Shown here piece after piece: positions 641-62,728 of a stretch of DNA of 64,000 bases (the first letter of the stretch is position 1; each line of letters starts with the position of its first letter). The DNA comes from Rufibacter sp. DG15C (lineage in GTDB: Bacteria; Bacteroidota; Bacteroidia; Cytophagales; Hymenobacteraceae), in assembly GCF_001577755.1 (NCBI RefSeq), contig NZ_CP010776.1, forward strand, positions 2,356,001 through 2,420,000, in the 5' to 3' direction. The notes below the pieces were generated by a model, which did not search any database, had not been told where the DNA came from, and saw nothing but the letters and a program-made list of their open reading frames with translations. The position numbers and the translations under genes were made by a program.

Positions 641-678
641 CGTTTTTGCCCCGTTTTCTGGAAAGTAGGCCAAAACCG
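641..678. repeat. Palindromic intergenic element, copy 1
   Basis: Imperfect inverted repeat with half-site CGTTTTTGCCCCGTTTTC and right arm GGCCAAAACCG. It lies 39 bp after the stop of the DUF2490 gene and before the next plus-strand gene. First of about 22 copies. Confidence 0.8.
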
Positions 679-704
679 AAGCTTGGATTAAGGCCTTCTC
701 TCTT

Positions 705-1223
705 GTGAAAAAAATAGCCATCACCGGCCCCGAAAGCACTGGCAAGTCAACCTTGGCCGCACACCTAGCCGCCCATTTTCAAGCGCCTTGGGTACCCGAG
801 TACGCCCGTCACTACATCGCAGAACTAACCCGACCGTACCTAGCCCATGACCTGGACCAGATCCTAAAGGGACAGTTACACCGTTGGAAGGCCGCCGAAG
901 CTTCAAATCCCCATCTCCTGATTCTGGACACCGAGGCGCTGGTCATGAAAATCTGGTCTGAACATGCCTACGGTCAGGCCTCATCTTACATCTTGCAGGA
1001 GCTGGACAAGCAGCAAATAGACCTGTACCTGCTCTTAAACGTAGACTTGCCCTGGGAGCCCGACCCGCAGCGCGAGCATCCGCATTTGCGGCAGTATTTC
1101 TATGAATGGTACAAGCGCGAGCTGCAGCAAAGGAACGCCCCGTTTGTTGAAATATCTGGTACCCACCACGCTCGTTTCCAGGCGGCCGTACACGCCGTAG
1201 AACAAATATTAATTGCAGACTAA
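705..1223 (+). CDS. NadR-like P-loop kinase (AAA family ATPase)
   Basis: 172-residue P-loop NTPase starting at GTG. The Walker A motif GPESTGKS is at residues 8-15, followed by the EYAR motif at 32-35 and an LLILDT segment with Asp75 that fits Walker B. The pattern GxESTGKS plus EYAR is that of the ribosylnicotinamide kinase domain of NadR, which phosphorylates nicotinamide riboside in NAD salvage. There is no NMN adenylyltransferase or HTH domain here, so this is a stand-alone kinase-type protein, common in Bacteroidota and usually annotated AAA family ATPase. Substrate is inferred from family only. The next gene starts 34 bp downstream, suggesting co-transcription. Confidence 0.75.
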   Translation: MKKIAITGPESTGKSTLAAHLAAHFQAPWVPEYARHYIAELTRPYLAHDLDQILKGQLHRWKAAEASNPHLLILDTEALVMKIWSEHAYGQASSYILQELDKQQIDLYLLLNVDLPWEPDPQREHPHLRQYFYEWYKRELQQRNAPFVEISGTHHARFQAAVHAVEQILIAD

Positions 1224-1257
1224 CGAGTGTCAAGACTCAGAACTCAAGACTAGTAAC

Positions 1258-2139
1258 ATGTCCATTGCCTACTTAGAGAATGAATTGGTGCGCGTTGGCG
1301 TCAAAAGCCACGGCGCAGAACTGTGCTCGTTCCTCAAGAAATCTGAAAACCTGGAATTTATCTGGCAAGCTGATGCCCAGTTCTGGAACCGCCATGCGCC
1401 GGTGCTTTTCCCCATCGTGGGCCGATTGCCGCAAGATCAGTACCTGCACCAAGGCCAGACGTATTCCTTGCCCCAGCACGGTTTTGCCCGGGACCAGGAA
1501 TTTACGGTGCTCTCCCAAACTTTAGATCAACTAGTGTATGAACTACGGTCATCTGAGCAGTCTTTGCAGGTGTACCCTTTTCAGTTTGCGTTGAGGATAT
1601 TTTATACCTTGCAGGACCAGACCCTGGAGGTGAAATACCAGGTGCAGAATTTAGCCGAAGGGGAGATGCTGTTCTCCATTGGCGCGCACCCGGCCTTTAA
1701 TTGTCCGCTCACGCCCAATACCACTTTTGAGGACTACTACTTAGAATTTTCCCATCCAGAAACCTTGGCGCGCTACCTGCTAGAAGACGGAACTGGGCTG
1801 CAGAACGGACAGACAGAACCGGTGCTGGACAACATGGCCATCCTGCCTTTGCGCTACAGCCACTATGAGAAAGATGCGCTGGTCTTTAAGAACGTGCGCT
1901 CAGAAAAGATTGCCTTAAAATGTGACCAACACCCGCATTACGTACAGATGCAGTTTGCCGGCTTCCCGTACCTGGGCATCTGGACCAAGCGGCCGGGCGC
2001 GCCTTTCCTGTGCCTGGAGCCGTGGCACGGCATTGCCGGAAGCGCTGGCTCGCCCCTAGAGCTAAGCCAGAAGGAAGGTATGGTTTCTTTGGGGAGCCAC
2101 CAGACTTTTGAGGCCGCCTATACCATTGCCATCGGGTAA
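1258..2139 (+). CDS. Aldose 1-epimerase family protein (LacX-like)
   Basis: 293 residues from the ATG at 1258; an in-frame upstream start at 1213 would overlap the previous gene and adds non-conserved residues. The galactose-mutarotase fold is indicated by an early GAELCS segment, HGFAR (His74) and GAHPAFN with His144, plus a late PWHGIAG segment. These match LacX-type aldose epimerase relatives, which interconvert or bind sugar anomers in the cytoplasm. No signal peptide. Exact substrate cannot be read from the sequence. Confidence 0.82.
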   Translation: MSIAYLENELVRVGVKSHGAELCSFLKKSENLEFIWQADAQFWNRHAPVLFPIVGRLPQDQYLHQGQTYSLPQHGFARDQEFTVLSQTLDQLVYELRSSEQSLQVYPFQFALRIFYTLQDQTLEVKYQVQNLAEGEMLFSIGAHPAFNCPLTPNTTFEDYYLEFSHPETLARYLLEDGTGLQNGQTEPVLDNMAILPLRYSHYEKDALVFKNVRSEKIALKCDQHPHYVQMQFAGFPYLGIWTKRPGAPFLCLEPWHGIAGSAGSPLELSQKEGMVSLGSHQTFEAAYTIAIG

Positions 2140-2175
2140 ATCCACAACCCTTTCGTTTTCATACTTATGCCATAT

Positions 2176-2225
2176 GAAGTCCGTTTTTGGCTTGTTTTCC
2201 TAGAAACAGGCCAAAAACGGACTTC
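2176..2225. repeat. Palindromic intergenic element, copy 2, with extended stem
   Basis: Core half-site CCGTTTTTGGCTTGTTTTCC with right arm ACAGGCCAAAAACGG. The stem is extended by copy-specific outer arms GAAGT/ACTTC. It lies 37 bp after the aldose-epimerase stop. Confidence 0.85.
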
Positions 2226-2394
2226 GGCGTTTATGCTCCTCACGCCATTTCCCTTGATAATAAAGCCTCTTTCTCAACTTCGGGTAAAATCATGAGTATC
2301 AAGTAATAAGAAGGCTTTCGTTGAGGACGAGGGAAGGTGTTTTCCTTTTCTTATTAGTTGACCTTAATGGTGGGGAGTTGTTGGAAGGTGGGCC

Positions 2395-3483: not shown

Positions 3484-3485
3484 GC

Positions 3486-4745: not shown

Positions 4746-4747
4746 CC

Positions 4748-5431: not shown

Positions 5432-5444
5432 AACCTAACCCATC

Positions 5445-5482
5445 CGTTTTTGGCCTGTTTCCTGAGAAAGAGGCTAAAAACG
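5445..5482. repeat. Palindromic intergenic element, copy 3
   Basis: CGTTTTTGGCCTGTTTCC left arm, GAGGCTAAAAACG right arm, between the convergent ATPase and SIMPL genes. Confidence 0.8.
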
Positions 5483-5524
5483 CATTAACTATACTAGTCC
5501 TTGGTTAGAAGATGCGTGGAGTTT

Positions 5525-6256: not shown

Positions 6257-6506
6257 AGGATAACAGCATTTGGTTTGACTACCGAATGTGCCTTATACGG
6301 CTTCCCTAACTTTTGTCTTCAAATCTTAATGCGTAGCGTGCCAGCCTAGGCAATGTAAATCAAGCGTAAGCCTTATAGAATGCTGTAGAAAAAATGCATC
6401 TTTACCTGACAAGGAGTCCTCAGGGCTGCAAACATTTGGTCCTTACAACGGTTCTTTCTCAAGATCCCCCGCTACTTACGTTATCATTTATTCCGTTTCA
6501 TTTTCT

Positions 6507-6944: not shown

Positions 6945-6955
6945 TTTGTTTCCTC

Positions 6956-6993
6956 CGTTTTTGGCCTATTTTCTGGAAAGTAAGCTGAAAACG
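6956..6993. repeat. Palindromic intergenic element, copy 4
   Basis: CGTTTTTGGCCTATTTTC left arm and a weaker right arm (TAAGCTGAAAACG). It lies 11 bp after the stop of the preceding gene in a convergent gap. Confidence 0.75.
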
Positions 6994-7059
6994 AGTTGTT
7001 ATTTTTTGTAGCGGCTCTGCTTCCTTTCTTAGCTCTTAGCCTAGGTTTATTGCCATAAA

Positions 7060-7094
7060 AAACGCCACCTACTTTTTTACAATAGGTGGCGTTT
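7060..7094. terminator. Bidirectional hairpin terminator
   Basis: Arms AAACGCCACCTA and TAGGTGGCGTTT are perfectly complementary around an 11-nt loop, with A-rich bases before and T-rich bases in the loop and arm. It lies between convergent genes and can end both transcripts. Confidence 0.75.
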
Positions 7095-8887: not shown

Positions 8888-8925
8888 CGTTTTTGGCCTC
8901 CTTTCCAGGAAATACCCCAAAAACG
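8888..8925. repeat. Palindromic intergenic element, copy 5
   Basis: CGTTTTTGGCC left arm, CCCCAAAAACG right arm, weak centre. This is the only copy seen in a divergent gap (between starts at 8819 and 9029). Confidence 0.7.
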
Positions 8926-10059: not shown

Positions 10060-10097
10060 CGTTTTTGGCCTATTTTCTGGGAAACAGCCTGGAAACG
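10060..10097. repeat. Palindromic intergenic element, copy 6
   Basis: CGTTTTTGGCCTATTTTC left arm, GAAACAGCCTGGAAACG right arm. It is the one copy whose better-kept inner arm is on the right (reverse orientation). It lies just upstream of the PBP1A promoter. Confidence 0.75.
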
Positions 10098-12523: not shown

Positions 12524-12579
12524 CACCGGCCCCGTTTTCGGCCTGATTTCCAGAAATCAGGCCGAAAACGGGGCCGGTG
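12524..12579. repeat. Palindromic intergenic element, copy 7, long GC-flanked stem
   Basis: 56-bp near-perfect palindrome: core GTTTTCGGCCTGATTTCC with copy-specific outer arms CACCGGCC/GGCCGGTG. It lies 20 bp after the PBP1A stop, between two convergent genes, and probably helps end both transcripts. Confidence 0.88.
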
Positions 12580-12595: not shown

Positions 12596-13642
12596 TTAAT
12601 TTTTAGAGGTCTCGTACTTGAGTACTTCATTCACCATAAACTCAGTGGTATCAATGCAGTCCTCCAGCAATTTGTCTCGTAACTGGCTGTACTTGGCTTT
12701 GCCGCCGGTGTCTTGGATAATCTCCAAACCTCTCTCAATGGCTTTTTCCTGGTCTTGCGGGCTTTCTGTAAAGTAAGAGGCCAAGCCATATTTTTCGCCT
12801 TGCTCATCTATGTAGCCCAATCGGTTGCTGTTCACAAAGATGGCCGGCGTGCCCAATACCGCGGCCTCTGAGGCCATGGTGCCGCTTTCGCCAAACAATA
12901 GGGAACAATAATACAGCGCGTCATGCATCTTGTGGAACGGGATCTTGATTCTAAGCGATTCCAGGTCTTCGGGCAGTTCGCCTTCTGAGGAGATGAACAC
13001 ACGGGCGTGCTTGGAGAGCTCCTTCACCGCTTTTCGTTTGTTCTCTAAGGTCATGCCATTGTGGCCAAAGTCATGCGCAGCCGCCCAAGACACAAACCGT
13101 ACTATCACAAACTTCTCCTCTGGCGCCACGCCTAGGATGTCCAGGATGGACGGGTCTGGTTTGTAGTAGTTAGGGTGTAGGTAGGCAAGCTCCATGTAGC
13201 TTTTGAAGCGGTGCTGTTTCTGGCCCAGGTCAATGGTGTAACAAGAGGGAGTAAAGATTTTGGTTGCATAGGGTACGGTTAGTTTGTGGTGTAATTTGGC
13301 ATGCTCAGAGTCACTGAAGACCAAGGTGGTTTTGTTCATGAACTTGGCCACCTGTGACGGGTAGGGATGCAGAAAATTCAGGAACACGTCTGGTTTGAAC
13401 TTCTGGGCAATCTGCCAGATCTTGAGGTCGGCGTAGAGCAGGTAAAGGAACTTGCCAATTTTGCCGTTCTGTCCTTTGCCGCGGTTAATGTACGGGATGT
13501 TATACAGCTGCAACAGGTTGTGCTCAATTTCTTTGTTTCTGGATACAAACAGAATCTCATGATTCTTCTGCGTCATGATCTTGTAAAAATTTCTGAAGTA
13601 ATGCACATGCGCAGGATGGTTGATGTCTATCAGTATTTTCAT
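12596..13642 (-). CDS. DUF354 family glycosyltransferase-like protein
   Basis: 348 residues. Typical DUF354 start KILIDINHPAHVHYFRNF, then a Rossmann-like first half and a second half with FVSWAAAHDFGH, then LYYCSLLFGESGTMASEAAVLGTP. That last part resembles the nucleotide-sugar site of GT-B enzymes (UDP-GlcNAc 2-epimerase/MurG-like). DUF354 proteins are frequent in polysaccharide clusters. It is the last gene of the minus-strand EPS gene run; 142 bp separate it from the gene before it. Donor and acceptor are unknown. Confidence 0.8.
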   Translation of the reverse strand: MKILIDINHPAHVHYFRNFYKIMTQKNHEILFVSRNKEIEHNLLQLYNIPYINRGKGQNGKIGKFLYLLYADLKIWQIAQKFKPDVFLNFLHPYPSQVAKFMNKTTLVFSDSEHAKLHHKLTVPYATKIFTPSCYTIDLGQKQHRFKSYMELAYLHPNYYKPDPSILDILGVAPEEKFVIVRFVSWAAAHDFGHNGMTLENKRKAVKELSKHARVFISSEGELPEDLESLRIKIPFHKMHDALYYCSLLFGESGTMASEAAVLGTPAIFVNSNRLGYIDEQGEKYGLASYFTESPQDQEKAIERGLEIIQDTGGKAKYSQLRDKLLEDCIDTTEFMVNEVLKYETSKN

Positions 13643-16963: not shown

Positions 16964-17009
16964 CTTCCGTTTTTGGCTTGTTTTCTAGAAATGGGGCCAA
17001 AAGTGGAAG
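16964..17009. repeat. Palindromic intergenic element, copy 8
   Basis: CGTTTTTGGCTTGTTTTC left arm and GGGGCCAAAAGTGG right arm, with outer arms CTTCC/GGAAG. It lies inside the EPS gene run between two minus-strand genes. Confidence 0.75.
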
Positions 17010-21326: not shown

Positions 21327-21665
21327 GTCTGCGGTGTTAATGATAACTCAAGTAGGATGCTGTCCACGCTTTCCTACTAGAGAATGCTGCCCATGAAAAT
21401 GGAGCTCATCGTTCTTGGCCTGTTTTCTGGAAATCAGGCTAAAAACGGCCTTCAGGTGAAAACTCATGATAAGCTTTGAACTGAAAGGCCAGCAAACAGG
21501 AAAGGGGATGTAAGAAGGCAATGCAACAACGAGAGCCACGTGACATAGGAGGACCTCCATACATCAGACAGCGTACCACGGGAGAGGCAGGGTGTAGGCG
21601 AGCTACCGGTTTTCTTTCATAGAAAGGGTGCTATGAAAGGGAGAGTGTCTTTTTGTAAAACTTAG
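21327..21665. other. 339-bp gap between antiterminator and epimerase genes
   Basis: No gene is supported; a 70-residue frame (21348-21560) has no conserved look and overlaps the palindromic element. The gap holds copy 9 of the element. No TAnnTTTG box was seen on the minus strand. Confidence 0.7.
21410..21447. repeat. Palindromic intergenic element, copy 9
   Basis: CGTTCTTGGCCTGTTTTC left arm, ATCAGGCTAAAAACG right arm, 84 bp upstream of the epimerase start. Confidence 0.8.
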
Positions 21666-29220: not shown

Positions 29221-30528
29221 ATGAAGTTTAACACCAAATATATCGTATTGCCATTGCTAGTAGGTTTCATCTCTGCCTCTTGTGAAAAAGATGAACTAGA
29301 AGAAATGAACCCAACCGCAGAAGTAGCTTCTACTTCTAACCTTTCAACCAACTTGATTTTTGAGGAAACTATGGAAGGTACGTCTCCTTTCTCTACTGCT
29401 CATGGTAGAGAAATTGGAACTTGGGATTATGCCTTTCAAATTGTAAATACTCCAGTATGGAGAGGTACTAAAGCAGCCCGCTTTGAGATCAGAAAGGATC
29501 AGCCGTTGGTGAATGATGGTAAAAGATCTGAATTCACTATTGTAAAGGGTGCTGAAGGTGATATCACCAAGAATACCTGGTACTCTTTCGCTGCTTATTT
29601 CCCTTCTAAAGGATATGAGTACGACACGGAGCGTGAGATCATTAACCAGTGGTACCAGAGCGGAAGCCCTTCTACTTCATTGAGAACGGACAAAGATAGA
29701 ATCACTTTTGAAGTAGGAAACACGCCAGAAACACGCGTAGTACATGATCTAGGTGCCATCAAGAAAGACACTTGGACTGAGTTTGTGTTCCACTTCATTC
29801 ACTCATATGGTTCTGACGGACTTGTTGAGATCTGGATGAACGGTGTGAAAGTGAAGACTTTGACTGGTGGTAACATGTACAATGACGTATTGCCTAAGTG
29901 GAAAATTGGTTTGTATAAGTCTGCTTTCAAATATGATGAGACAATCGTGACCAACCGCGTGATCTATTTTGACAACGTAAAAGTAGGTAACGCAAACGCC
30001 ACCTTCGCTGACATGAGCTCTGGTACTGGTTCAGGAACTACTGCTACTACCACAACTGGTACAACTACTACTACAGGCGGTACAACTACAACAGGTGGAA
30101 CGACTACAACTGGTGGCACGACCACAACCACGACGACTACTCCTACTACCACAACTTCAACAGACGTTCAGAAGGTTGTTAGCTTCACCTTGGTAAATGC
30201 CACTACAGACAAAGACATCATGACTATCCCTAATGGTGGCGTGATTGACCTAAGTGTTGTTGGTACAAACAGATTCAACATCAGAGCCAACACGGCCAAA
30301 GCCGGTGGTGTAGTGAAATTTGTAATGTCAGGTGCTAAGAGCGAAACCAGATTGGATGACGCAGTTCCTTACGCTTTGTTTGGTGACAACAGAGCAGGTG
30401 ACTACTACTCTTGGACTGCTGCAACAGGTTCTTATACCTTGACTGGTAGCACGTACACTGGTACTAAGAGCAGCCTTGGATCTTTAACAGCTCCTGCGTA
30501 CACCATCAACTTCAAAATTCAGAACTAA
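29221..30528 (+). CDS. Surface polysaccharide lyase lipoprotein with Thr/Gly-rich linker
   Basis: 435 residues. Lipoprotein signal ending FISASC with Cys22. Residues 45-265 match the Polysacc_lyase (heparin lyase I-like, jelly-roll) family: LIFEETMEG, GKRSEFTIV, REIINQWYQ, WTEFVFHFIHSYGSDGLVEIW and a WKIGLYKSAF segment with the conserved Lys and Tyr. Next is a Thr/Gly-rich linker (30019-30170) with GGTTTT repeats, then a C-terminal beta module of about 110 residues of unknown kind. Expected to cut glycosidic bonds by beta-elimination next to a uronic acid. Codon use is rich in GGT/GCT/ACT, like highly expressed genes nearby, so expression may be high. Followed by a strong terminator. Confidence 0.85.
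   Translation: MKFNTKYIVLPLLVGFISASCEKDELEEMNPTAEVASTSNLSTNLIFEETMEGTSPFSTAHGREIGTWDYAFQIVNTPVWRGTKAARFEIRKDQPLVNDGKRSEFTIVKGAEGDITKNTWYSFAAYFPSKGYEYDTEREIINQWYQSGSPSTSLRTDKDRITFEVGNTPETRVVHDLGAIKKDTWTEFVFHFIHSYGSDGLVEIWMNGVKVKTLTGGNMYNDVLPKWKIGLYKSAFKYDETIVTNRVIYFDNVKVGNANATFADMSSGTGSGTTATTTTGTTTTTGGTTTTGGTTTTGGTTTTTTTTPTTTTSTDVQKVVSFTLVNATTDKDIMTIPNGGVIDLSVVGTNRFNIRANTAKAGGVVKFVMSGAKSETRLDDAVPYALFGDNRAGDYYSWTAATGSYTLTGSTYTGTKSSLGSLTAPAYTINFKIQN
30019..30170 (+). repeat. Low-complexity Thr/Gly coding repeat
   Basis: Imperfect 18-bp coding units encode GGTTTT three to four times, followed by a Thr/Pro run. Synonymous codons differ between units, so DNA slippage is probably weak. Forms a flexible linker between the lyase and C-terminal module. 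Confidence 0.75.
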
Positions 30529-30585
30529 GAACCTGGCCAAATGCCAACCTTAACCTGACTAGTAATAACAGATACTAAACCCTTT

Positions 30586-30618
30586 AAAAAGGAGCAGCCA
30601 CCTAGCTGCTCCTTTTTT
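30586..30618 (+). terminator. Rho-independent terminator after the first lyase
   Basis: Stem AAGGAGCAGC/GCTGCTCCTT with loop CACCTA and a following run of six T. 58 bp after the stop. Confidence 0.88.
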
Positions 30619-30676
30619 GTTTGTACAAGCTTGAGATGATTATGGAATTGATGCTAAACAAAGATGAGAGGAGAAG

Positions 30677-30714
30677 CGTTTTTGGCCTGTTTTCCAGAAA
30701 ACAGGCCAAAAACG
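30677..30714. repeat. Palindromic intergenic element, copy 10
   Basis: Perfect 38-bp palindrome: CGTTTTTGGCCTGTTTTCC followed by its exact complement. It lies downstream of the terminator of the first lyase gene. Confidence 0.92.
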
Positions 30715-30909
30715 GAAGAAAATTCTACATAGCTCAAGTATGAAATCACTTATGCTTCTGCCCAACTTCGGGCTAAATAATAGTAGAGGAAACCTTCAGT
30801 AAATTAATATCACAAAGGTGGCCATACTTGCGTAGAAGGTTGAATAGTAACAGCTAAGGAATTTGCTTCGCGCAATTTCGGCTACTTTCCATGCGGCACC
30901 TCTCTTTAC

Positions 30910-31794
30910 ATGATTATGGTTCTATATTCTAATGGTTTGCTTTTGCTGCAGATGCTGTTGGCGGTTTCGTGCGCAGGTAAAAAAGGAGAAAAGTCTACGG
31001 CTCTAGATACTCACCCAATCTCTGTAACCAAGTCATCAGCCAATTCCAATCTCCTGTTTGAAGAAACCTTTGAAAATGACGCACCATTTTCTGCCGCCCA
31101 CGGCAAAGAAATAGGAGACTGGGACTACGCCTTGCAATATGTCACCTCGCCGGTGTTCAAAGGCAGAAAAGCAGCCCGGTTTGAGATAAGAGCTGACCAG
31201 GCTTTGGTGAAAGACGGCAAACGCGCCGAAGTCACCATTGTAGGGCCGGTCACTTCTAAGGAGCGCTGGTATTCTTTTGCGGTGTATTTTCCGTCAGATG
31301 GGTTTGCCAAAGACACGGTGCGTGAAATCATTTCGCAGTGGTACCAGCGCGCCGACCAGCATTTAGGGGAGAAGTCTTCTAGTCCTGCCACAGCCCTACG
31401 CGTGAATAAGGACAGGTTTGTGTTAGATACCGGGTTCAATGCAAACTTGGTCTCTGACGGCGTAACCCCCGAAAGTAAAAAGAAACTGGACCTAGGCGAA
31501 GTAACCAAAGACACCTGGCATGAGTTTGTCTTTCATTTTGTGCATTCCTTCCATGAAGACGGACTCATTGAGGTATGGCACAACGGAAACAAAATTCTCA
31601 CACATGCTGCCGGCAACATGTACAACAATGCGGTGATGCCCAAATGGAAGCTCGGATTGTACAAAGCGGCCTTTAAAAACGGGACTTCGGCCGTGACCAA
31701 CCGGGTGGTGTACTTTGACAACATTAAAGTGGGTAATGAGCACGCCACCTACGCAGAAATGGCGCCCAGCGCCGAAACCACGGCCCAAAAGTAA
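30910..31794 (+). CDS. Second polysaccharide lyase lipoprotein (paralogue)
   Basis: 294 residues. Lipoprotein signal with Cys21 in LLAVSC; ATG at 30916 is an alternative start. It shares the order of blocks with the lyase at 29221: NLLFEETFENDAPFSAAHGKEIGDWDY, FKGRKAARFEI, REIISQWYQ, FVFHFVHSFHEDGLIEVW, WKLGLYKAAF and TNRVVYFDNIKVGN. It lacks the Thr/Gly linker and C-terminal module. Heparin lyase I-like fold, probable uronate-containing substrate. Codon use is more GC-rich than in the first copy, so the duplicates have diverged in expression or history. Confidence 0.85.
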   Translation: MIMVLYSNGLLLLQMLLAVSCAGKKGEKSTALDTHPISVTKSSANSNLLFEETFENDAPFSAAHGKEIGDWDYALQYVTSPVFKGRKAARFEIRADQALVKDGKRAEVTIVGPVTSKERWYSFAVYFPSDGFAKDTVREIISQWYQRADQHLGEKSSSPATALRVNKDRFVLDTGFNANLVSDGVTPESKKKLDLGEVTKDTWHEFVFHFVHSFHEDGLIEVWHNGNKILTHAAGNMYNNAVMPKWKLGLYKAAFKNGTSAVTNRVVYFDNIKVGNEHATYAEMAPSAETTAQK

Positions 31795-31819: not shown

Positions 31820-31857
31820 CGTTTTTAGCCTGTTTTCCAGAAATAAGGCCAAAAACG
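31820..31857. repeat. Palindromic intergenic element, copy 11, overlapping a second hairpin
   Basis: CGTTTTTAGCCTGTTTTCC left arm, AAGGCCAAAAACG right arm. Its last six bases (31852-31857) are also the start of the neighbouring hairpin's left arm. Confidence 0.85.
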
Positions 31858-31896
31858 AAGTCGCCAGCTAGTGTAGGTAGCTGGCGACTTCGTTTT
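31852..31896. terminator. Long perfect hairpin between lyase and propeller genes
   Basis: 19-bp arms 31852-31870 and 31878-31896 (GTCGCCAGCTA/TAGCTGGCGAC core) are perfectly complementary around a 7-nt loop. A-rich left end and T-rich right end make it a likely bidirectional terminator between convergent genes. Confidence 0.85.
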
Positions 31897-39185: not shown

Positions 39186-39203
39186 GCAGTACACTGTGAT
39201 TTG

Positions 39204-39250
39204 AAAACGGGAGGGCCCGATGTTTCTGCAACATCGGGCCCTCCCGTTTT
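39204..39250. terminator. Perfect 20-bp-stem hairpin between convergent genes
   Basis: Arms 39204-39223 and 39231-39250 are perfectly complementary (GGGAGGGCCCGATGT in the left arm) with a 7-nt loop, A4 before and T4 after. It overlaps palindromic copy 12 by six bases (39245-39250). Confidence 0.88.
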
Positions 39251-39282
39251 CAGGCTGTTTTCCGGAAATCAGGCCAAAAACG
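39245..39282. repeat. Palindromic intergenic element, copy 12
   Basis: CGTTTTCAGGCTGTTTTCC left arm, ATCAGGCCAAAAACG right arm; its first bases are the right arm of the neighbouring terminator. Confidence 0.82.
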
Positions 39283-40266: not shown

Positions 40267-40306
40267 CCGTTTTTGGCCTGTTTCCTAGGCAAGAGGCCAA
40301 AAACGG
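40267..40306. repeat. Palindromic intergenic element, copy 13
   Basis: CCGTTTTTGGCCTGTTTCCT left arm, GAGGCCAAAAACGG right arm, between pgi and the pirin gene. Confidence 0.82.
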
Positions 40307-42761: not shown

Positions 42762-42976
42762 AAGGAAAGCAAGTCCTTTCAAGGTAACGTGATGGAGCGG
42801 GGTAGGCCCAGTACTAGAACAGAACGGGGGATTCTGTGAGACCAGTACGCCTCCTATAAACTTACACCTTTCCCGCCTAGGATTCCAGCGGTCACGGCAC
42901 TTTCTTTCTTTTACTTCCATGTTAACAGTTTTTGACTTATTTTTCTGGAAACACCACCAAATCAAACAACCTCTCC

Positions 42977-44329: not shown

Positions 44330-44379
44330 GCGCTTCGTTTTTGGTCTGTTTCTGAGAAAATAGGCCAAAAACGAAGCGC
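44330..44379. repeat. Palindromic intergenic element, copy 14
   Basis: CGTTTTTGGTCTGTTTCTG left arm, ATAGGCCAAAAACG right arm, with copy-specific outer arms. Confidence 0.85.
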
Positions 44380-45936: not shown

Positions 45937-45976
45937 CCGTTTTTGGCTCATTTCCCAGAAAGTAGCCCAAAAACGG
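45937..45976. repeat. Palindromic intergenic element, copy 15, overlapping a second hairpin
   Basis: CCGTTTTTGGCTCATTTCCC left arm, AGTAGCCCAAAAACGG right arm. Its last seven bases begin the next hairpin. Confidence 0.8.
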
Positions 45977-46017
45977 AAAGCCCTCTCAAAATCAAATTTG
46001 AGAGGGCTTTCCGTTTT
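45970..46017. terminator. Perfect 21-bp-stem hairpin between convergent genes
   Basis: Arms 45970-45990 and 45997-46017 are perfectly complementary (AAGCCCTCTCAAA in the left arm), loop ATCAAA. A4 before and T4 after allow bidirectional termination. It overlaps copy 15 by seven bases. Confidence 0.88.
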
Positions 46018-46876: not shown

Positions 46877-46914
46877 CGTTTTTGGGCTGTTTTCTGAAAA
46901 AGAGGACAAAAACG
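46877..46914. repeat. Palindromic intergenic element, copy 16
   Basis: CGTTTTTGGGCTGTTTTC left arm, GAGGACAAAAACG right arm. Confidence 0.75.
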
Positions 46915-49550: not shown

Positions 49551-49590
49551 CCGTTTTTGGCCTGTTTTCCGGGAATTAAGCCAAAAACGG
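49551..49590. repeat. Palindromic intergenic element, copy 17
   Basis: CCGTTTTTGGCCTGTTTTCC left arm, GGAATTAAGCCAAAAACGG right arm. Confidence 0.85.
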
Positions 49591-51323: not shown

Positions 51324-51361
51324 CGTTTTTGGGCTGTTTTCTGGAAAAGAGGCGGAAAACG
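51324..51361. repeat. Palindromic intergenic element, copy 18, directly before a start codon
   Basis: CGTTTTTGGGCTGTTTTC left arm, GAGGCGGAAAACG right arm; 2 bp upstream of the pseudouridine-synthase ATG on the minus strand. Confidence 0.8.
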
Positions 51362-51366
51362 GAATT

Positions 51367-51431
51367 ATTGTTGATTGTCTATTGCTGATTGTTGTTCAAT
51401 GAAAATCAATCAGCAATAGACAATCAACAAT
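51367..51431. repeat. 25-bp perfect inverted repeat between panB and the RluA-family gene
   Basis: Arms 51367-51391 and 51407-51431 are perfectly complementary (TTGTTGATTGTCTATTGC in the left arm) with a 15-nt loop. It is AT-rich with no long T tail, 7 bp from the panB stop. Could be a terminator or a processing stem; unrelated to the palindrome family. Confidence 0.75.
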
Positions 51432-51437
51432 CAGTAA

Positions 51438-52253
51438 TTAATAAGCTTCTTTTTCAGTGGGGAAGTTGAGGGACTTAACGTCTTTGATGTAGTTGCCCAC
51501 GGCGTTGGTGATGGTCTCGTGTAGTTCGGCGTAGCGGCGCAGGAAACGTGGTTTGAACTCTTTGGTGATGCCAAGCAAATCATGAATCACTAATACCTGA
51601 CCGTCTACGTGCGGACCGGCGCCAATGCCAATGATAGGGATATGCAGTTCAGCGGCGACGCGTTTGGCCAGGCTAGACGGAATTTTCTCCAGCACAATGG
51701 CAAAACAACCTAGTTCCTGCAGCAAGTGGGCGTCTTCTATGAGTTTCTCGGCTTCGGCTTCTTCTTTGGCGCGCACCGAGTAGGTGCCAAATTTATAGAT
51801 GGACTGCGGGGTTAAACCCAGGTGGCCCATCACGGGTACGCCAGCGCTTAAGATGCGGGTGATGGAGTCTTTAATCTCAAAGCCGCCTTCCAGCTTTACG
51901 CCGTGCGCGCCAGACTCCTTCATGATCCTGATGGCAGAGCGCAGGGCTTCAGAAGAATTTCCTTGATACGACCCAAACGGCAAGTCCACCACCACAAAGG
52001 CTCTTTTGACCCCGCGCACCACAGAGGAGGCGTGGTAGATCATCTGATCCAGCGTGATAGGAAGGGTAGTTTCATGACCGGCCATCACGTTAGAGGCAGA
52101 GTCACCTACCAGTAACACGTCTGTGCCGGCGGCATCCAGCAGAGTGGCCATGGAGAAGTCATAGGCCGTGAGCATGGAGATTTTTTCGCCGCGCTCCTTC
52201 ATGGTGTGCAGCTGGTGGGTGGTGACAATCTTTACCTCTTTCTGTACTGACAT
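51438..52253 (-). CDS. panB: 3-methyl-2-oxobutanoate hydroxymethyltransferase
   Basis: 271 residues from ATG 52253 ([18 protein letters not shown]); an in-frame start at 52286 would overlap the -7 box at 52284 and is less likely. Typical motifs: [63 protein letters not shown] and [16 protein letters not shown]. Makes ketopantoate for pantothenate/CoA. Single gene, terminator-like inverted repeat after the stop. Confidence 0.95.
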
Positions 52254-52316: not shown

Positions 52317-52354
52317 CGTTTTTGCCCTGTTTTTTTCAAAAAGAGCCCAAAAAC
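52317..52354. repeat. Palindromic intergenic element, copy 19
   Basis: CGTTTTTGCCCTGTTTTTTT left arm, AAAGAGCCCAAAAAC right arm, next to the lptD terminator. Confidence 0.7.
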
Positions 52355-55935: not shown

Positions 55936-55947
55936 CCAATTCCAACT

Positions 55948-56961
55948 GTGAATTTATCTAAAGAACTCAAAGTAGCGTTGCTGGGCCTTGTGGCAGTAGC
56001 GGCACTCTATGTGGGCTTCATTTTCTTAAAAGGCTCTAGCGTCTTTTCTTCTTCGCGCACGTTTTTTGTAACCTATGAAAGTGTGTCTGGCTTGACGGTG
56101 TCCAACCCTGTGATCCTGAATGGTTTAAACGTAGGGATTGTCAAAGAGATGACCCTGCAGCCAACCAAAGGCAACCGGGTGGTGGTCACTGTGGAGATAA
56201 ATGAAGACATCATAGTAGGGGATTCTACCGTGGCCATGCTGGTAAGCTCAGATTTGTTGGGCGGCAAAGCCATTGAACTCTACATGGGTAAGAACAAGCG
56301 GCTTTATGACGGCGGTGAGAACTTGATTCCGTTTGTCAAAGAAAGCATCACAGACTTGTTTGCCTCCAGAGCCATGCCAGTCTTAGACACGGTTGACTCT
56401 ACCTTGGTACGATTGAACATGTTCTTGGACAAGGACGCCAAGCGCAGCATCCAGTCCATTCTCATGAACGCCGAGGCTACCTCAGAGACCATCAGGGCTA
56501 TGGCGCTGGCCAACCAAGGCAACATCAACCAGATTGCTGGTAACCTGGCGCAACTCACGGCCTCCTTAAAAGGCACAGAAAAGAAGTTCAGTCAGCTGGC
56601 GTCTAACCTCAATGAGATCACAGACACCATTGACGTGCAGACCATGAACCAGACCATTAAGAACTTGAACGCGACGGTGTCTGAGGCACAATTGGCCATG
56701 AAGAAATTCAATGAAAGCCAAGGCTCTTTCAACAAGCTCATGAACGATGATTCCTTGTACCGCAACTTGAATGCTTCCAGCGCCAGTTTAAACGCCTTGC
56801 TCATTGACTTTAAGGCCAATCCTAAGCGGTATGTGCATTTCTCGCTCATAGGGGGTGGCACCAAGGTAGAAAAAGCTGAAAACGTGAAAGAGGCCACCAA
56901 AGTGAAGAATGCCGCTACCGTTGAGAAGGCCGGCACCATTGAAGAAATAGAGAAGAAGTAA
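55948..56961 (+). CDS. MlaD/MCE family phospholipid transport protein
   Basis: 337 residues, GTG start. One N-terminal membrane helix (VALLGLVAVAALYVGFIFLKG), then the MCE domain FFVTYESVSGLTVSNPVILNGLNVGIVKEM and LVSSDLLGGKAIELYMG at about residues 35-115. The rest is helical and coiled (QIAGNLAQLTASLKGTEKK; NATVSEAQLAMKKF), with a tail of repeating VEKAENVKEATKVKNAATVEK character. Subunit of an ABC-type lipid transport system (MlaEFD-like). No permease or ATPase is next to it. Perfect palindrome with T run follows. Confidence 0.9.
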   Translation: MNLSKELKVALLGLVAVAALYVGFIFLKGSSVFSSSRTFFVTYESVSGLTVSNPVILNGLNVGIVKEMTLQPTKGNRVVVTVEINEDIIVGDSTVAMLVSSDLLGGKAIELYMGKNKRLYDGGENLIPFVKESITDLFASRAMPVLDTVDSTLVRLNMFLDKDAKRSIQSILMNAEATSETIRAMALANQGNINQIAGNLAQLTASLKGTEKKFSQLASNLNEITDTIDVQTMNQTIKNLNATVSEAQLAMKKFNESQGSFNKLMNDDSLYRNLNASSASLNALLIDFKANPKRYVHFSLIGGGTKVEKAENVKEATKVKNAATVEKAGTIEEIEKK

Positions 56962-56979
56962 ATTTCTCAAACAGATATT

Positions 56980-57027
56980 AAAAGCGTTTTTGGCCTGTTT
57001 TCTAGAAAACAGGCCAAAAACGCTTTT
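56980..57027. repeat. Palindromic intergenic element, copy 20, perfect 48-bp palindrome
   Basis: 24-bp arms, perfectly complementary, centred on TCTAGA, with outer AAAAGCG/CGCTTTT and a T run after it, so it can also serve as terminator of the MCE gene 19 bp upstream. Confidence 0.95.
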
Positions 57028-57058
57028 TTGCTTTTAGGGCTAAACAACTAGCTAACAA

Positions 57059-57090
57059 TTGTTAGGCTTTCTTTGAAATCCTTATATTTG
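57059..57090 (+). promoter_or_regulatory. Candidate promoter of the acyl-CoA carboxylase gene
   Basis: TTG (57059-57061), 21 bp, TATATTTG (57083-57090), 49 bp before the ATG. Good match to TTG-N17-23-TAnnTTTG. Confidence 0.65.
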
Positions 57091-57139
57091 TCCATAGCCC
57101 ACAAAGGGCCAACCTCAAAACTACCGTATTCATCCCCGC

Positions 57140-58768
57140 ATGGATTTAGAATTCAATAAGAACGAAGACGCCTTGAAGCAGCTTTGTTTTCAGTTAAGGA
57201 GCAAACACCAGAAAGTATCTTTGGGCGGCGGCGAGAAAGCCATAGCCAAGCAACACGAGAAGGGCAAACTCACGGCCCGGGAGCGCATTCAGTATTTGAT
57301 TGATGAGGCATCAGAGTTCTTGGAGATTGCCGCCTTTGCCGGCGAAGGCATGTACCAGGAGTACGGTGGTTGCCCTGGCGGAGGCGTGGTGGCTGGTATT
57401 GGCTATGTGAAAGGCCGCCAGTGCATGATTGTGGCCAATGACGCTACCGTGAAAGCGGGTGCCTGGTTTCCCATCACCGCCAAGAAGAACCTGCGCGCGC
57501 AAGAAATTGCCATGGAGAACCGCCTGCCGGTCATCTACCTGGTAGACAGCGCCGGCGTGTTCTTGCCCATGCAGGACGAGATCTTCCCAGACAAAGAGCA
57601 CTTCGGGCGCATGTTCCGGAACAACGCCATCATGAGCTCAGAAGGCATCGTGCAGATCTCAGCGATTATGGGTTCTTGCGTAGCAGGCGGCGCCTATCTG
57701 CCTATTATGAGCGACGAGGCCATGATTGTGGAAGGCACAGGTTCTATCTTCCTGGCTGGATCATACCTGGTGAAAGCGGCCATTGGCGAGACCATTGACA
57801 ATGAGACCCTGGGCGGCGCGTCCACCCATTCAGAAATCTCTGGCGTCACAGATTATAAGTTCGAGACCGATCAAGAGTGCCTGGACCATATCCGGAACAT
57901 CTTTGATAAAATGGGCGACAACCCCAAAGCAGGCTTCAGCAGAGTAGAGCCTGTGGCGCCTAAGTTAGACCCACAAGAAATCTACGGTCTGTTGCCCACG
58001 GACCGCGTGAAGCCCTATGACATGATGGACATCATCCTGCGCATGGTGGACAATTCTGAGTTTGAGCCATACAAGGATCTTTATGGGCAAAGTCTGATTT
58101 GCGGCTTGGCGCGCATAGACGGTTGGGCCGTGGGCATTGTGGCCAACCAACGCAAGATTGTCAAGAGCAAGAAAGGCGAGATGCAAATGGGTGGCGTGAT
58201 CTATTCAGACTCTGCAGACAAGGCCGCGCGCTTTATCATGAACTGCAACCAGAAGAAAATTCCGTTGTTGTTCTTGCAAGACGTGTCGGGGTTTATGGTA
58301 GGCAGCAAGGCAGAGCACGGCGGCATCATCAAAGACGGCGCCAAGCTGGTGAATGCCATGAGCAACTCTGTGGTTCCTAAGTTCACCATCCTGATTGGCA
58401 ACAGCTACGGCGCGGGTAACTATGCCATGTGCGGCAAAGCCTATGACCCACGCTTGATCTATGCCTGGCCAACGGCGCAATTAGCGGTCATGTCAGGAGC
58501 ATCAGCGGCCAAGACCTTGTTGCAGATTCAGGTAGCATCTTTAAAAGCCAAAGGCGAGGAGATTACTCCAGAAGATGAGAAAGCCTTGCTCGACAAAATC
58601 ACGGCCCGTTACAATGAGCAGTTGAGCCCGTATTACGCGGCCTCCCGCCTGTGGGTAGACGGCATCATTGACCCCCTAGAAACGCGCAAAGTCATCTCTA
58701 TGGGCATTGAAGCAGCCAACAACGCCCCCATCACCAAACCATTCAACGTAGGCGTAATCCAAACCTGA
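57140..58768 (+). CDS. Acyl-CoA carboxylase beta (carboxyltransferase) subunit
   Basis: 542 residues. N-terminal and C-terminal carboxyltransferase domains: GKLTARERIQYLID, FAGEGMYQEYGGCPGGGVVAGIG, ITAKKNLRAQEIAMENRLPVIYLVDSAG, GSCVAGGAYLP in the first half; IPLLFLQDVSGFMVG, GNSYGAGNYAMCGKAYDPRLIYAWP and MSGASAAKTLL in the second. Transfers CO2 from carboxybiotin to an acyl-CoA, as in propionyl-CoA or methylcrotonyl-CoA carboxylase; substrate not resolved. The biotin carboxylase subunit is not in this window. Confidence 0.93.
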   Translation: MDLEFNKNEDALKQLCFQLRSKHQKVSLGGGEKAIAKQHEKGKLTARERIQYLIDEASEFLEIAAFAGEGMYQEYGGCPGGGVVAGIGYVKGRQCMIVANDATVKAGAWFPITAKKNLRAQEIAMENRLPVIYLVDSAGVFLPMQDEIFPDKEHFGRMFRNNAIMSSEGIVQISAIMGSCVAGGAYLPIMSDEAMIVEGTGSIFLAGSYLVKAAIGETIDNETLGGASTHSEISGVTDYKFETDQECLDHIRNIFDKMGDNPKAGFSRVEPVAPKLDPQEIYGLLPTDRVKPYDMMDIILRMVDNSEFEPYKDLYGQSLICGLARIDGWAVGIVANQRKIVKSKKGEMQMGGVIYSDSADKAARFIMNCNQKKIPLLFLQDVSGFMVGSKAEHGGIIKDGAKLVNAMSNSVVPKFTILIGNSYGAGNYAMCGKAYDPRLIYAWPTAQLAVMSGASAAKTLLQIQVASLKAKGEEITPEDEKALLDKITARYNEQLSPYYAASRLWVDGIIDPLETRKVISMGIEAANNAPITKPFNVGVIQT

Positions 58769-58790
58769 GTTTGAGAATCAGACTATAAAA

Positions 58791-58834
58791 AAATACGGCA
58801 AAGAAATGACGCAGCTCACTTCTTTGCCGTATTC
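58791..58834 (+). terminator. Terminator of the carboxylase gene
   Basis: AATACGGCAAAGAA/TTCTTTGCCGTATT stem, 14-nt loop, T-rich bases following. It lies 23 bp after the stop. Confidence 0.8.
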
Positions 58835-58898
58835 GTTTTAATATTGTGAGAGATACTTCTTAATTTTTCACTTCTAATTATTAATTGAACACGCAGTT

Positions 58899-59807: not shown

Positions 59808-59845
59808 CGTTTTTGCCCTCATTTCCAGGAAATAGCCCAAAAATG
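59808..59845. repeat. Palindromic intergenic element, copy 21, abutting a stop codon
   Basis: CGTTTTTGCCCTCATTTCC left arm, ATAGCCCAAAAATG right arm, beginning immediately after the TAG at 59805-59807. Confidence 0.78.
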
Positions 59846-59876
59846 AAAAGCCGCCTTGTAAGGGGTGGCTTTTTTT
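59846..59876 (+). terminator. Terminator after the SirB1-like gene
   Basis: AAGCCGCC/GGTGGCTT stem (one G-T pair) with T-run at the end. Confidence 0.75.
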
Positions 59877-60000
59877 ATGCCTTCGTCCTTTTGCTCAATG
59901 CAATAAGTTTAGGAAGCTGCGCAAGAATCAGGTTCAGAATTATTGTCCTAAAACGGTAAATGCGTATCTTACCTAGCTGAGGAAAGAGCTAATCTGTTCT

Positions 60001-62658
60001 ATGAGAAAGAAGTACGCGCGTTTTATCTATACATATTTTGTTTTTGGGCTTACCTGTTGCCTTTTTTTTGGACAACAGCCTGTGTTGGCACAAACTTCTA
60101 CCCAAGATCGTCAAGCGGAATCTGCCAAGATGGCCCCGGCCTTAAAAAGTGGCAACAGACAGCAGGAGTTTTCTAGAGTGAGGGTACGGGTAAAGGATTC
60201 AGCGTCTTTCCAGAAATGGCTTAAACAGCATGTCCCCAATGCCTCCTCTCAGCCTATTACTTCCTTGAATTCTGTTTTTTTGGTGTCTGGTTTAGAAAAA
60301 GGTGATCCTCAGAAATTAGGTCAATGCCCTTGGGTGACCTTTGTAGACGTTCCAGACAGAAAAGCCAAAGAAGAAGCCTACCTCCAAAACGCAGACTTGC
60401 GGGTAAACCGAGTGGATGCTTTGCATCTGGCCTATCCAGAGGTACATGGCAAAGGACTAACCGTTTCAGTGAAAGAACAGCCGTTTGACAGCCTAGACCT
60501 AGACTTTAAAACCAGAGTTCTTCCTTCCAGCGCCTTCAGTCAGACGTATACCCCACACGCTACTGCCATGGCCACCTTGATTGCCGGCGCCGGAAACACG
60601 TCTCCTACCTCTCAGGGAGTGGCTTGGCAAAGCAAGGTAACCGCTGCCAACTTCGCAAATCTGCTACCAGACAATACAGATGTGTTGAAAGCACAAGGCG
60701 TGACGGTGCAAAACCATTCCTACGGGGTGGGCGTGGAGAATTACTATGGCCTGGAGAGCCAGGCCTATGACCAACAAGCAAGACAACTACCATACTTGCT
60801 GCACGTGTTCTCTTCGGGGAATTCTGGCTTGCTGGCCCCAACCGAAGGGCCTTATGAAAAGATAGCGAGCTTTGCCAACCTCACGGGACAGTTCAAGGTC
60901 TCTAAAAATACGTTGAGCGTGGGCGCCATTGATACCTCGGGGCAGGTAAGTGTTTTGAGTTCTAAAGGTCCCACGTATGACGGCCGTATTAAGCCAGAAG
61001 TGGTTGCCTTCGGCGAAGCCGGAACCTCTGAGGCGGCCTCAGTCGTATCTGGCATTGCCTTGGCGGTACAGGATGCTTTTAAGAAGAAAAACGGAGGAGT
61101 TTTGCCGCCATCAGGTTTAGTGAAAGCGGCCATCATCAATGCCGCAGATGACAAGGGAAGAGCGCACGTGGATTATGCCGCCGGCTTTGGGAATGCAGAT
61201 GCGCTGGGAACGGTGCAGTCCATCATGGAAGGCCGCTATGCCAACGGTACCGCCACTCAAGGAACCACCCAGTCCATAAAATTCACAGTGCCGCCAACCA
61301 TGGCCAACGTAAAGGTCACTTTGGTTTGGCTGGACAAGGAAGGGGAACCTAATGCAGCAAGTGCGCTGGTGAATGACTTGGACCTGGTAGTAAAAGCAAC
61401 TGCTTCTGCGCAGCAATGGCTGCCTTGGGGCTTAAGCACGTTCGCCCACAAAGATTCATTACTGGCTCCCGCCAGAAGAAAGGCAGACCATCTCAATAAT
61501 GTGGAGCAGGTCACGTTAGAGAACCCTGCTCCCGGTGAATATGAAATCTTGGTGAGTGGGTTTCAGGTGGATGGCCAGCAAAGCTTTAGTGTAGTCTATG
61601 AATATGAAAAGGCTTTTTCTTGGTACTATCCTTCAGTGAGTAGCTATTTAGAAGCGGGTCAGAAAAGTAGGATTCGGTGGGTAGCGCCGGTTAAAGAAGT
61701 GGCTACCGGTAGGTTAGAATTCAGGTACGCCACCGCTGGTGCTCCCTGGCAGGTGTTAAAGAATGTTGTTGACGTCAGCAAAGAGGCCGTTGACATTACC
61801 TTGCCAGATACTACCGCGTTGGCTGAGTTGCGCATGGTTATAGCCGGTGAGGCATATGCCACAGGCGCTTTTGTGATTAGTCCTACGCTGGCGTTAAAGG
61901 TAGGCTACCAATGCGGCGATGAGGTCATGCTGTTCTGGCCCAAAGCCCCAGGCGCCGATAAATTCCAGGTCTATCAACTCGGTAGTCAGTTTTTAGAACC
62001 CCTCACGCAGACAACAGATACGGTGGTAGTCTTCAATAAGAAGCAGCAAGCAGCGGTGCATTATGCAGTAGCGCCTATGGTGCAGGGGACGCTGGGGCAA
62101 CGAAGCCTCACCCAGAATTACACCCAGCAGGCCGTGGCTTGCTACGTGAAGAGCTTCCTGCCAAAATACTTTGTAACCGATACGGTGCTCCTGGATTTGC
62201 AGATTAGCACTACGTACGGCCTTACGGCTATGTACCTGGAGAAAAAGGTAAACGGTGCCTTTAAAACGCTTCAGCCCATAGCCATTGGGCGGCAAACAGA
62301 TTTTGACTTACAAGATCTGGCCCCACTGTCTGGATGGAATGAGTACCGCATTAAGCTGGTCACCCAATCTGGGGCTACCTATTACAGCCAGCCCGAAGGT
62401 CTTTTCTACACGCCTGAGCGCTACATACAAGTATATCCAAACCCAGCGTTGGCCGGCGATGATATGAACATCATCACGCAGGATGATGCCACTAACAACA
62501 TATTTATCTATGACCAGGTGGGGCGGTTGGTAAGAGAGTTTTTACAAGACGGTTCCATCAAAGTCATTGAAACCAAAGGCTTGCGGCCGGGAGCATATTT
62601 TATCAGAGTGCTTTCTTCTACTGGCGTCCTTACGCAAACCAAAGTCATCCTACTTTAG
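60001..62658 (+). CDS. Secreted S8 (subtilisin-like) peptidase with T9SS sorting domain
   Basis: 885 residues. Signal peptide of about 30 (QQPVLAQ end), a propeptide-like part, then the S8 domain. Catalytic Asp lies in VKEQPFDSLDLDF around 163-168, His186 in PHATAM, oxyanion Asn274 in FSSGNSG, and Ser343 in GTSEAASVVSG, where the usual Met-Ala-x-Pro after GTS is changed. Next come beta-sandwich modules (about 400-800) and a C-terminal T9SS sorting domain (QVYPNPALAGDD, GAYFIRVLSSTG). Likely secreted and anchored by T9SS, degrading proteins outside the cell. No promoter was found; gap of 190 bp upstream. Confidence 0.92.
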   Translation: MRKKYARFIYTYFVFGLTCCLFFGQQPVLAQTSTQDRQAESAKMAPALKSGNRQQEFSRVRVRVKDSASFQKWLKQHVPNASSQPITSLNSVFLVSGLEKGDPQKLGQCPWVTFVDVPDRKAKEEAYLQNADLRVNRVDALHLAYPEVHGKGLTVSVKEQPFDSLDLDFKTRVLPSSAFSQTYTPHATAMATLIAGAGNTSPTSQGVAWQSKVTAANFANLLPDNTDVLKAQGVTVQNHSYGVGVENYYGLESQAYDQQARQLPYLLHVFSSGNSGLLAPTEGPYEKIASFANLTGQFKVSKNTLSVGAIDTSGQVSVLSSKGPTYDGRIKPEVVAFGEAGTSEAASVVSGIALAVQDAFKKKNGGVLPPSGLVKAAIINAADDKGRAHVDYAAGFGNADALGTVQSIMEGRYANGTATQGTTQSIKFTVPPTMANVKVTLVWLDKEGEPNAASALVNDLDLVVKATASAQQWLPWGLSTFAHKDSLLAPARRKADHLNNVEQVTLENPAPGEYEILVSGFQVDGQQSFSVVYEYEKAFSWYYPSVSSYLEAGQKSRIRWVAPVKEVATGRLEFRYATAGAPWQVLKNVVDVSKEAVDITLPDTTALAELRMVIAGEAYATGAFVISPTLALKVGYQCGDEVMLFWPKAPGADKFQVYQLGSQFLEPLTQTTDTVVVFNKKQQAAVHYAVAPMVQGTLGQRSLTQNYTQQAVACYVKSFLPKYFVTDTVLLDLQISTTYGLTAMYLEKKVNGAFKTLQPIAIGRQTDFDLQDLAPLSGWNEYRIKLVTQSGATYYSQPEGLFYTPERYIQVYPNPALAGDDMNIITQDDATNNIFIYDQVGRLVREFLQDGSIKVIETKGLRPGAYFIRVLSSTGVLTQTKVILL

Positions 62659-62668
62659 AACGAATTGC

Positions 62669-62728
62669 AGGTAAGCCTCCGTTTTTAGGCTGTTTTCTAG
62701 AGAACAGCCTAAAAACGGAGGCTTACCT
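62669..62728. repeat. Palindromic intergenic element, copy 22, 60-bp near-perfect palindrome
   Basis: 30-bp arms with one mismatch, centred on CTAG; core CGTTTTTAGGCTGTTTTC and copy-specific outer arms AGGTAAGCCTC/GAGGCTTACCT. It lies 11 bp after the subtilase stop. Confidence 0.93.

Follow-up and report, generated by a model that had tools for sequence, protein, structure and literature searches.

We analysed a window of 64,000 nucleotides from the chromosome of Rufibacter sp. DG15C (positions 2,356,001 to 2,420,000 of a single contig of 4,143,738 bp; the genome is referred to as G000), in which 22 copies of a 38-bp dyad lie dispersed between genes. The unit consists of an 18-bp half-site, CGTTTTTGGCCTGTTTTC, two further base pairs (NN) and the reverse complement of the half-site. 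An inverted repeat with about 22 copies had been described in a first-pass annotation of this DNA, and a dyad of the above form was found at 22 of 22 listed places when at least 13 of 18 matches were required in the better half and at least 20 of 36 in both halves summed. Nine of the listed starts were a few bases off the start of the 38-bp core, which begins at 2182, 12533, 16968, 40268, 44336, 45938, 49552, 56985 and 62680 where 2176, 12524, 16964, 40267, 44330, 45937, 49551, 56980 and 62669 had been given. Two additional matches were dropped, one at 42927 with weak halves (14.6 and 4.4 bits), which is probably due to chance, and one at 52318, which is a one-base shift of the dyad at 52317. 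Comparison with base composition, a check named in advance, placed the repeat far above chance in both window and genome. The half-site with up to 3 mismatches has 35 matches in the window against 0.07 expected (largest of 100 shuffles: 1), and 805 + 835 half-sites with up to 2 mismatches were counted genome-wide against 0 for a reversed control pattern. Our own gene calls reproduced the gap contexts originally described, with seven dyads in convergent, 14 in tandem and one in divergent gaps. The window gave no Rfam match at gathering scores. Beyond what had been seen in the window, the family spreads through the genus, is written in species dialects and has arms which mostly do not covary.

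A wider sample of G000 (464 kb, the window plus 20 evenly spaced stretches, with crude gene calls) was searched with a position weight matrix, which yielded 179 dyads compared with 0 in shuffled sequence. By extrapolation, G000 holds about 1,600 dyads in total, and we estimate that Rufibacter chromosomes each carry a thousand or more copies, mostly just past gene ends. Sites are evenly spread among the 20 stretches, each with 2 to 12 dyads per 20 kb (chi-square p 0.34). The 179 sites were distributed over 112 tandem, 38 convergent and 14 divergent gaps, with 10 sites inside gene calls and 5 at stretch edges. The earlier description of a dispersed, intergenic family is thereby borne out for nearly all of the 179 sites; the stricter wording that all copies are intergenic holds for the window but not for the ten sites inside gene calls. 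Four of the ten are no more than 40 nt from a predicted start, three fall in open reading frames of less than 80 amino acids, and the remaining three, with lower scores of 25.9 to 31.1 bits, are found deep within long genes. For comparison between species, 324 contiguous kb of G000 and blocks of two relatives, G017 and G048, were used, in which 6 of 137 sites (G017) and 10 of 183 sites (G048) lie inside gene calls. In the G000 block, gaps of 38 bp or more contain a site in 27 of 33 cases if convergent, 72 of 155 if tandem and 8 of 35 if divergent, and 99 of 107 occupied G000 gaps of at least 45 bp hold exactly one. In tandem gaps of G000, sites lie at a median of 35.5 nt from the stop upstream and 96.5 nt from the following start. 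If only tandem gaps of 220 bp or more are counted, the medians are 60 and 201 nt for G000, 75 and 202 nt for G017, and 106 and 188 nt for G048, so that the 3' bias exceeds what avoidance of the bases just before a start codon would give. Regular spacing was considered and is unsupported (coefficient of variation, observed against permuted: 0.682/0.797 in G000, fraction 0.043; 0.873/0.780 in G017; 0.659/0.719 in G048). The G017 block (C1:3737001-4077000) includes one 22-kb interval between occupied gaps, the mean being about 3 kb. One G000 stretch (L084, C1:100001-120000) has a G+C content of 40% compared with about 49-50% for the sampled genome and contains 2 dyads among 20 genes; it may represent recently acquired DNA.

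Among 120 genomes of the family, half-sites in the G000 spelling occurred in all 16 genomes of the genus set (Rufibacter, with Sabulibacter; G000 included, other G labels denoting relatives) at 40 to 2,074 copies, and the 104 genomes of five other genera showed control-like counts of 0 to 4. The exact inner core was present in 56 stretches of a GTDB-wide collection, from which records of G000 itself were possibly left out, and 55 of these stretches belong to Rufibacter or Sabulibacter. The sole other match (L045, a metagenome-assembled genome of Oceanospirillaceae) was taken as chance because no half-site within 4 mismatches is present in its 8 kb. Inspection by eye of a generic palindrome listing for 400 kb from 13 genomes of five sister genera revealed no shared half-site. 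The exact inner core was not found in viral contigs, and one 48-bp dyad query gave no match in plasmids.

Relatives carry dyads at similar densities, in spellings of their own; the matrices behind this comparison had the G000 matrix as their starting point in training and are possibly biased. Half-sites of the G000 type are abundant in G000 (1,640) and G017 (2,074) and far fewer in G048 (107) and G045 (121). The G048 type is found 2,202 times in G048, 85 times in G000, 52 times in G017 and 4 times in G045 (range 4 to 85 across the 15 other genomes), and the G045 type 2,297 times in G045, with 11 copies each in G000 and G017 and 5 in G048. In these genomes, the G000/G017, G048 and G045 spellings therefore almost exclude one another. 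A single position can illustrate the difference: position 13 is C in 351 of 366 G048 halves compared with 33 of 250 G000 halves. Information content was determined with a dialect-neutral matrix, which returned 0 sites in shuffled sequence, from 40 kb per genome and 10 to 22 intergenic sites each. Five genomes (G000, G017, G048, G060 and G045) are tight, at about 23 to 26 bits per half, while G012, G027, G032, G051 and G054 were included in the half-site counts and lie outside this classing. In a 13-gene tree, the tight genomes G000, G017, G048 and G060 group together, and G045, also tight, stands apart among genomes with a loose consensus. In G057, three half-sites close to the G048 spelling stand within 200 bp (C1:455179-455372) in a genome with 12 such matches, possibly as a result of DNA transfer. 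A few G048 gaps contain another repeat, CCCCTCTCC...GGAGAGGGG, with CTCACCC nearby.

Conservation at orthologous gaps, which had been raised in the first-pass annotation, was found for all three pairs compared. Of 162 conserved gaps between G000 and G017, 74 were occupied in both genomes, 10 in one and 78 in neither, whereas 38.5 doubly occupied gaps would be expected under independence; 74 of the 84 gaps with a site in either genome are thus occupied in both. For G000 and G048 (81 gaps), 29 were occupied in both, 5 in G000 only, 13 in G048 only and 34 in neither (17.6 both expected), so that 29 of 47 gaps with a site in either genome are shared across a dialect change. For G017 and G048 (82 gaps), the corresponding numbers were 32, 6, 14 and 30 (21.3 both expected). 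Alignment of the doubly occupied gaps placed site on site in 66 of 68 cases examined for G000 and G017 (6 longer gaps skipped) and in 18 of 26 for G000 and G048 (3 skipped). The cores are under constraint: among aligned sites, core identity was 85.2% for the former pair compared with 76.2% in other aligned intergenic columns, and 78.1% compared with 71.3% elsewhere for the latter. Deviations from the consensus are common to orthologous sites. In the closest pair, G000 and G017, six short gaps among the ten occupied on one side only showed no clean 38-bp insertion.

Each half-site has a GGCCT-like box between two T-tracts, which are spaced by about 10 to 11 bp. Conservation of the half-site is strongly position-specific, with T4 and T5 present in 356 of 358 and G13 in 212 of 358 G000 halves, a pattern that would not be expected from neutral decay of copies. 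The arms of G000 dyads do not covary at position 8 or at positions 10 to 18 (|z| no higher than 1.1), and arm mismatches read along the transcripts of tandem genes comprise, when pooled, 395 G:U and 427 A:C pairs (p 0.28). Mostly independent arms together with the lack of an overall G:U bias argue for duplex DNA and a dimeric protein more than for an RNA hairpin, and the median folding energy of the core in G000 is only about -10 kcal/mol. Departures from independence occur at four core positions and in a subset with perfect arms. Strong half-sites rarely have a weak partner (10, 7 and 5 cases in G000, G017 and G048 compared with 119, 132 and 173 with a partner). Further, a pyrimidine-purine step occupies the dyad centre in 126 of 178 G000 sites compared with about 30% in a CNNG background, and in 97 of 125, 100 of 137 and 159 of 183 sites of the G000, G017 and G048 blocks. 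The dyads show two-fold symmetry, mostly independently varying halves and the presence of both halves, all of which are features of dimeric protein sites.

The view that the dyad is not by itself a standard terminator is supported. Using our own detector, no canonical terminator was called at 88 of 139 gene ends facing a G000 site, and at 15 of the 139 ends the dyad is directly adjoined by a canonical hairpin, for which CGTTTTT can serve as T-tract. In G000, a canonical terminator is present at 49 of 126 gene ends in gaps with a site and at 24 of 95 gene ends in gaps without. For convergent gaps, the numbers were 47 of 70 in G000, 18 of 36 in G017, 23 of 44 in G048 and 29 of 43 in pooled sister genera. 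No clear sign of a replacement of ordinary terminators by dyads was seen, the frequency of terminators not being clearly different from that in the small samples of sister genera. At a minority of sites, the dyad is fused with a terminator-like stem or supplies its T-tract.

Individual copies in the window illustrate this range. Tandem gaps hold the dyads at 641..678 (22.9 and 23.0 bits per half), 2182..2219 (outer stem GAAGTC/GACTTC, 2176 to 2225), 10060..10097 (weaker right half), 16968..17005, 21410..21447, 30677..30714, 40268..40305, 44336..44373, 46877..46914, 49552..49589 and 51324..51361. Among these, the dyad at 44336 is terminator-like, forming the upper stem above an outer stem GCGCTT/AAGCGC followed by a T-run, and the one at 51324 lies 2 nt from the neighbouring stop and has a matching site in G017. 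Two copies had been singled out as perfect palindromes, and both are: the dyad at 30677 equals the consensus on both arms, and the copy listed at 56980 (56985..57022) carries an outer stem AAAAG/CTTTT followed by a T-run. The gap of the latter (56,961-57,140) was examined in 11 genomes and holds a dyad in all of them, lying between AAG and CTT at 22 to 34 nt past the stop, with each tight species using its own spelling. Convergent gaps contain the dyads at 5445..5482, 6956..6993 (weaker right half), 12533..12570, 31820..31857, 39245..39282, 45938..45975 and 62680..62717. The copy at 12533 has perfect arms and a 9-bp outer stem (12524-12579), and in its G017 orthologue an outer stem of other sequence is also paired; an 11-bp outer stem (62669-62728) surrounds the last dyad. 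The right ends of the dyads at 31820 and 45938 are common to separate hairpins (31852-31896 and 45970-46017, respectively), and the left CGTTTTC at 39245 follows a GC hairpin (39202-39252) in the manner of a T-tract. The dyad at 8888..8925 lies in a divergent gap, the only one of the window to hold a copy. At 52317..52354, a dyad with a weak right half abuts a hairpin, an arrangement shared by 10 of 11 genomes for their best site in this gap. Finally, 59808..59845 lies directly after a stop codon and is followed by a separate hairpin with a T-run. As side observations, the perfect dyad at 30677 separates two adjacent polysaccharide-lyase-like genes (PF14099, window 29221-31794), and another dispersed repeat, rich in A+T (like TTGTTGATTGTCTATTGCTGATTG and its complement), is found beside dyads at window 51341-51457 and in L086 at about 13393-13472, with similar sequence in the orthologous gap of several relatives.

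With somewhat better than even confidence, we favour the interpretation that the dyads are duplex-DNA recognition sites of a genus-confined, dimeric, co-evolving trans-acting factor which marks or insulates gene ends. Such a sequence-specific factor would bind the 38-bp dyads on double-stranded DNA and read each half-site of about 18 bp, with a pyrimidine-purine centre in Rufibacter sp. DG15C and the species closest to it. Selection would keep the sites, mostly one per gap, just past gene ends and away from promoters. As the specificity of the factor drifts, the sites would follow and give rise to dialects at inherited positions, while some arms would be homogenised by template switching. We infer that the most likely function of the reader is that of an architectural or roadblock protein which marks or insulates gene ends between neighbouring genes.

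Several observations weigh against this interpretation. A site carries about 46 bits, although 11.3 bits would be enough to find about 1,600 sites, and this excess means that a driven or copied sequence fits at least as well as a regulator site. No obvious candidate for a reader was found among 20 window proteins scanned against Pfam (3 of 20 without a match), no proteome comparison having been made. The G000 spelling also reaches high counts in G060 (1,197), G012 (665) and G032 (536), and the G045 spelling reaches 442 in G060; these intermediate counts indicate that dialects grade into each other outside the three described above. Six relatives (G006, G057, G022, G037, G042 and G063) have a loose consensus of 14.6 to 17.9 bits per half. 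In eight other relatives, the pyrimidine-purine centre is rarer, at 2 of 17 to 8 of 19 sites. Independence of the arms is likewise incomplete, since core positions 1, 6, 7 and 9 show paired change (z 2.4 to 5.1) and the ratio of G:U to A:C mismatches is not uniform (175/224 in G000, 79/93 in G017, 141/110 in G048). Sites with perfect arms exceed arm shuffling (11 compared with 2.0 in G000, 10 with 1.8 in G017, 17 with 5.3 in G048), and pairing of the outer flanks is more frequent than expected at positions -5 to 0 (z about 2 to 5). The two go together: arms differ at 1.7, 2.1 and 2.5 positions on average in the three genomes if the outer stem has at least 4 bp, compared with 5.0, 4.4 and 4.9 if it has less than 2 bp. 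Outer pairs changed on both sides between G000 and G017 orthologues in 25 of 132 cases, giving different stems which are each still paired. We read the excess of outer pairing and perfect arms as fusion with terminator stems or as homogenisation of arms by template switching, a known process (PMC7202029, PMC8604942 and PMC8794818).

Paired outer stems, and orthologues which differ in sequence yet both pair, would also suit an RNA-level element, that is a terminator or 3'-end hairpin of mRNAs, as would the short distance to the upstream stop, the canonical hairpins abutting some dyads and the higher frequency of canonical terminators in gaps with a site. Most core positions, however, lack arm covariation, a pooled G:U preference is absent, the core folds weakly, the majority of facing ends have no canonical terminator, and canonical terminators show no clear drop compared with sister genera; we consider this explanation very unlikely. 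Mobile or formerly mobile palindromes of a REPIN- or MITE-like kind, dispersed by a transposase in successive waves that would correspond to the dialects, could account for high copy number, intergenic placement, uniformity within tight species, the excess of copies with perfect arms and the occurrence of tight species beside loose, relic-like ones. RAYT-like (Y1_Tnp) genes are present in 15 of the 16 genomes, with between 1 and 6 copies per genome in these 15 relatives. G000 is the sole genome without a Y1_Tnp match (0 at E 0.001) and would thus have no present engine for a RAYT-driven spread of its 1,640 half-sites. Of 17 RAYT loci, four (L214, L216, L217 and L218) have dyads starting within 200 nt of the gene on each side, although gaps are often occupied anyway, and the other 13 are not closely flanked by dyads on both sides, with many RAYT genes lying near other REP-like repeats as judged by eye. 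Positions conserved between species, deviations common to orthologues and the lack of clean insertions in six of the ten one-sided G000/G017 gaps likewise argue against movement. A RAYT/REP origin was not retained, the missing G000 match and the 13 loci without close dyads on both sides having lowered a mobile reading that we now consider improbable. As an observation on these loci (L208-L224, from G048, G017, G012, G060, G045, G006, G032 and G022), most RAYT-like genes encode 176-187 amino acids, and the nearby REP-like repeats vary between loci, e.g. GAGTCTGAAGACTCGCGCC (by eye).

Alternatively, the dyads may be a DNA uptake signal preferred by the competence receptor of the genus, which would accumulate and drift in dialects through uptake-biased transformation. 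Species dialects, very high information per site and an even chromosomal spread fit a driven sequence of this kind, and high copy number with species dialects is also characteristic of DNA uptake sequences (DUS). According to PMC3630211, each species group of Neisseriaceae has its own DUS dialect; inverted DUS pairs are associated with terminators, dyads of overlapping DUS occur as well (1,294 in S. muelleri), and intragenic DUS are common. The Rufibacter family, however, has few lone half-sites and few intragenic sites (10 of 179 in G000, 3 of them well inside long genes). ComEC is encoded in 16 of 16 genomes, in accordance with competence, but its presence does not separate tight from loose species and is uninformative in this respect. 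We regard an uptake signal as an unlikely explanation.

Returning to recognition sites of a dimeric factor, a more elaborate proposal is tentative and rather doubtful at present: a genus-specific gene-end punctuation system in which a dedicated dimeric protein, perhaps a domesticated mobile-element protein, would read about 18 bp per half in bipartite fashion on well over 1,000 dyads behind genes and insulate neighbouring transcription units, with reader and signs having co-evolved into dialects and decayed where the reader was lost. In any case, a motif of this information content and copy number, with species spellings and largely inherited positions, constitutes a strong natural case for reader-site co-evolution. 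If a reader is found, the dialect pairs (G000/G017, G048, G045) will make a genome-scale change in specificity directly testable.

Overall, the interpretation given in the first-pass annotation is supported, including its statement that no named family matches. We found no published description: titles and abstract openings of open-access literature on Rufibacter or Bacteroidetes intergenic palindromic repeats, and on convergent genes and sites of nucleoid-associated proteins, did not contain one. REP/BIME and MITE had been offered as analogies only, and this caution agrees with the missing RAYT match in G000 and with the six differing G000/G017 gaps in which no clean insertion was seen. REP and REPIN sequences are high-copy, short, extragenic palindromic DNA, often downstream of genes, according to excerpts of PMC3116915, PMC8049555 and PMC3733652, and share these properties with the dyads. 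Unlike them, the dyads have conserved positions, lack close flanking at most RAYT loci and show no stem-loop with an unpaired GTAG or CGTC tag in their consensus (REP tags as given in the excerpt of PMC3733652). The nearest analogue is the DUS of Neisseriaceae, likewise of high copy number with species dialects, yet the Rufibacter unit differs in being a 38-bp dyad that seldom occurs as a single half-site or within genes. Intrinsic terminators resemble the dyads in location, and a minority of dyads are fused with a stem and T-run; the arms of the dyad core are, however, mostly independent, and canonical terminators coexist with the dyads while most facing ends lack one. Among architectural motifs, parS/ParB, matS/MatP, Noc and SlmA combine short sites, dimeric protein readers and chromosome-wide spread. 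Their sites are far fewer and shorter than the Rufibacter dyads, which in addition are located at gene 3' ends and show dialect drift. Should it be true that the dyads insulate gene ends, they would represent a bacterial analogue of boundary elements.

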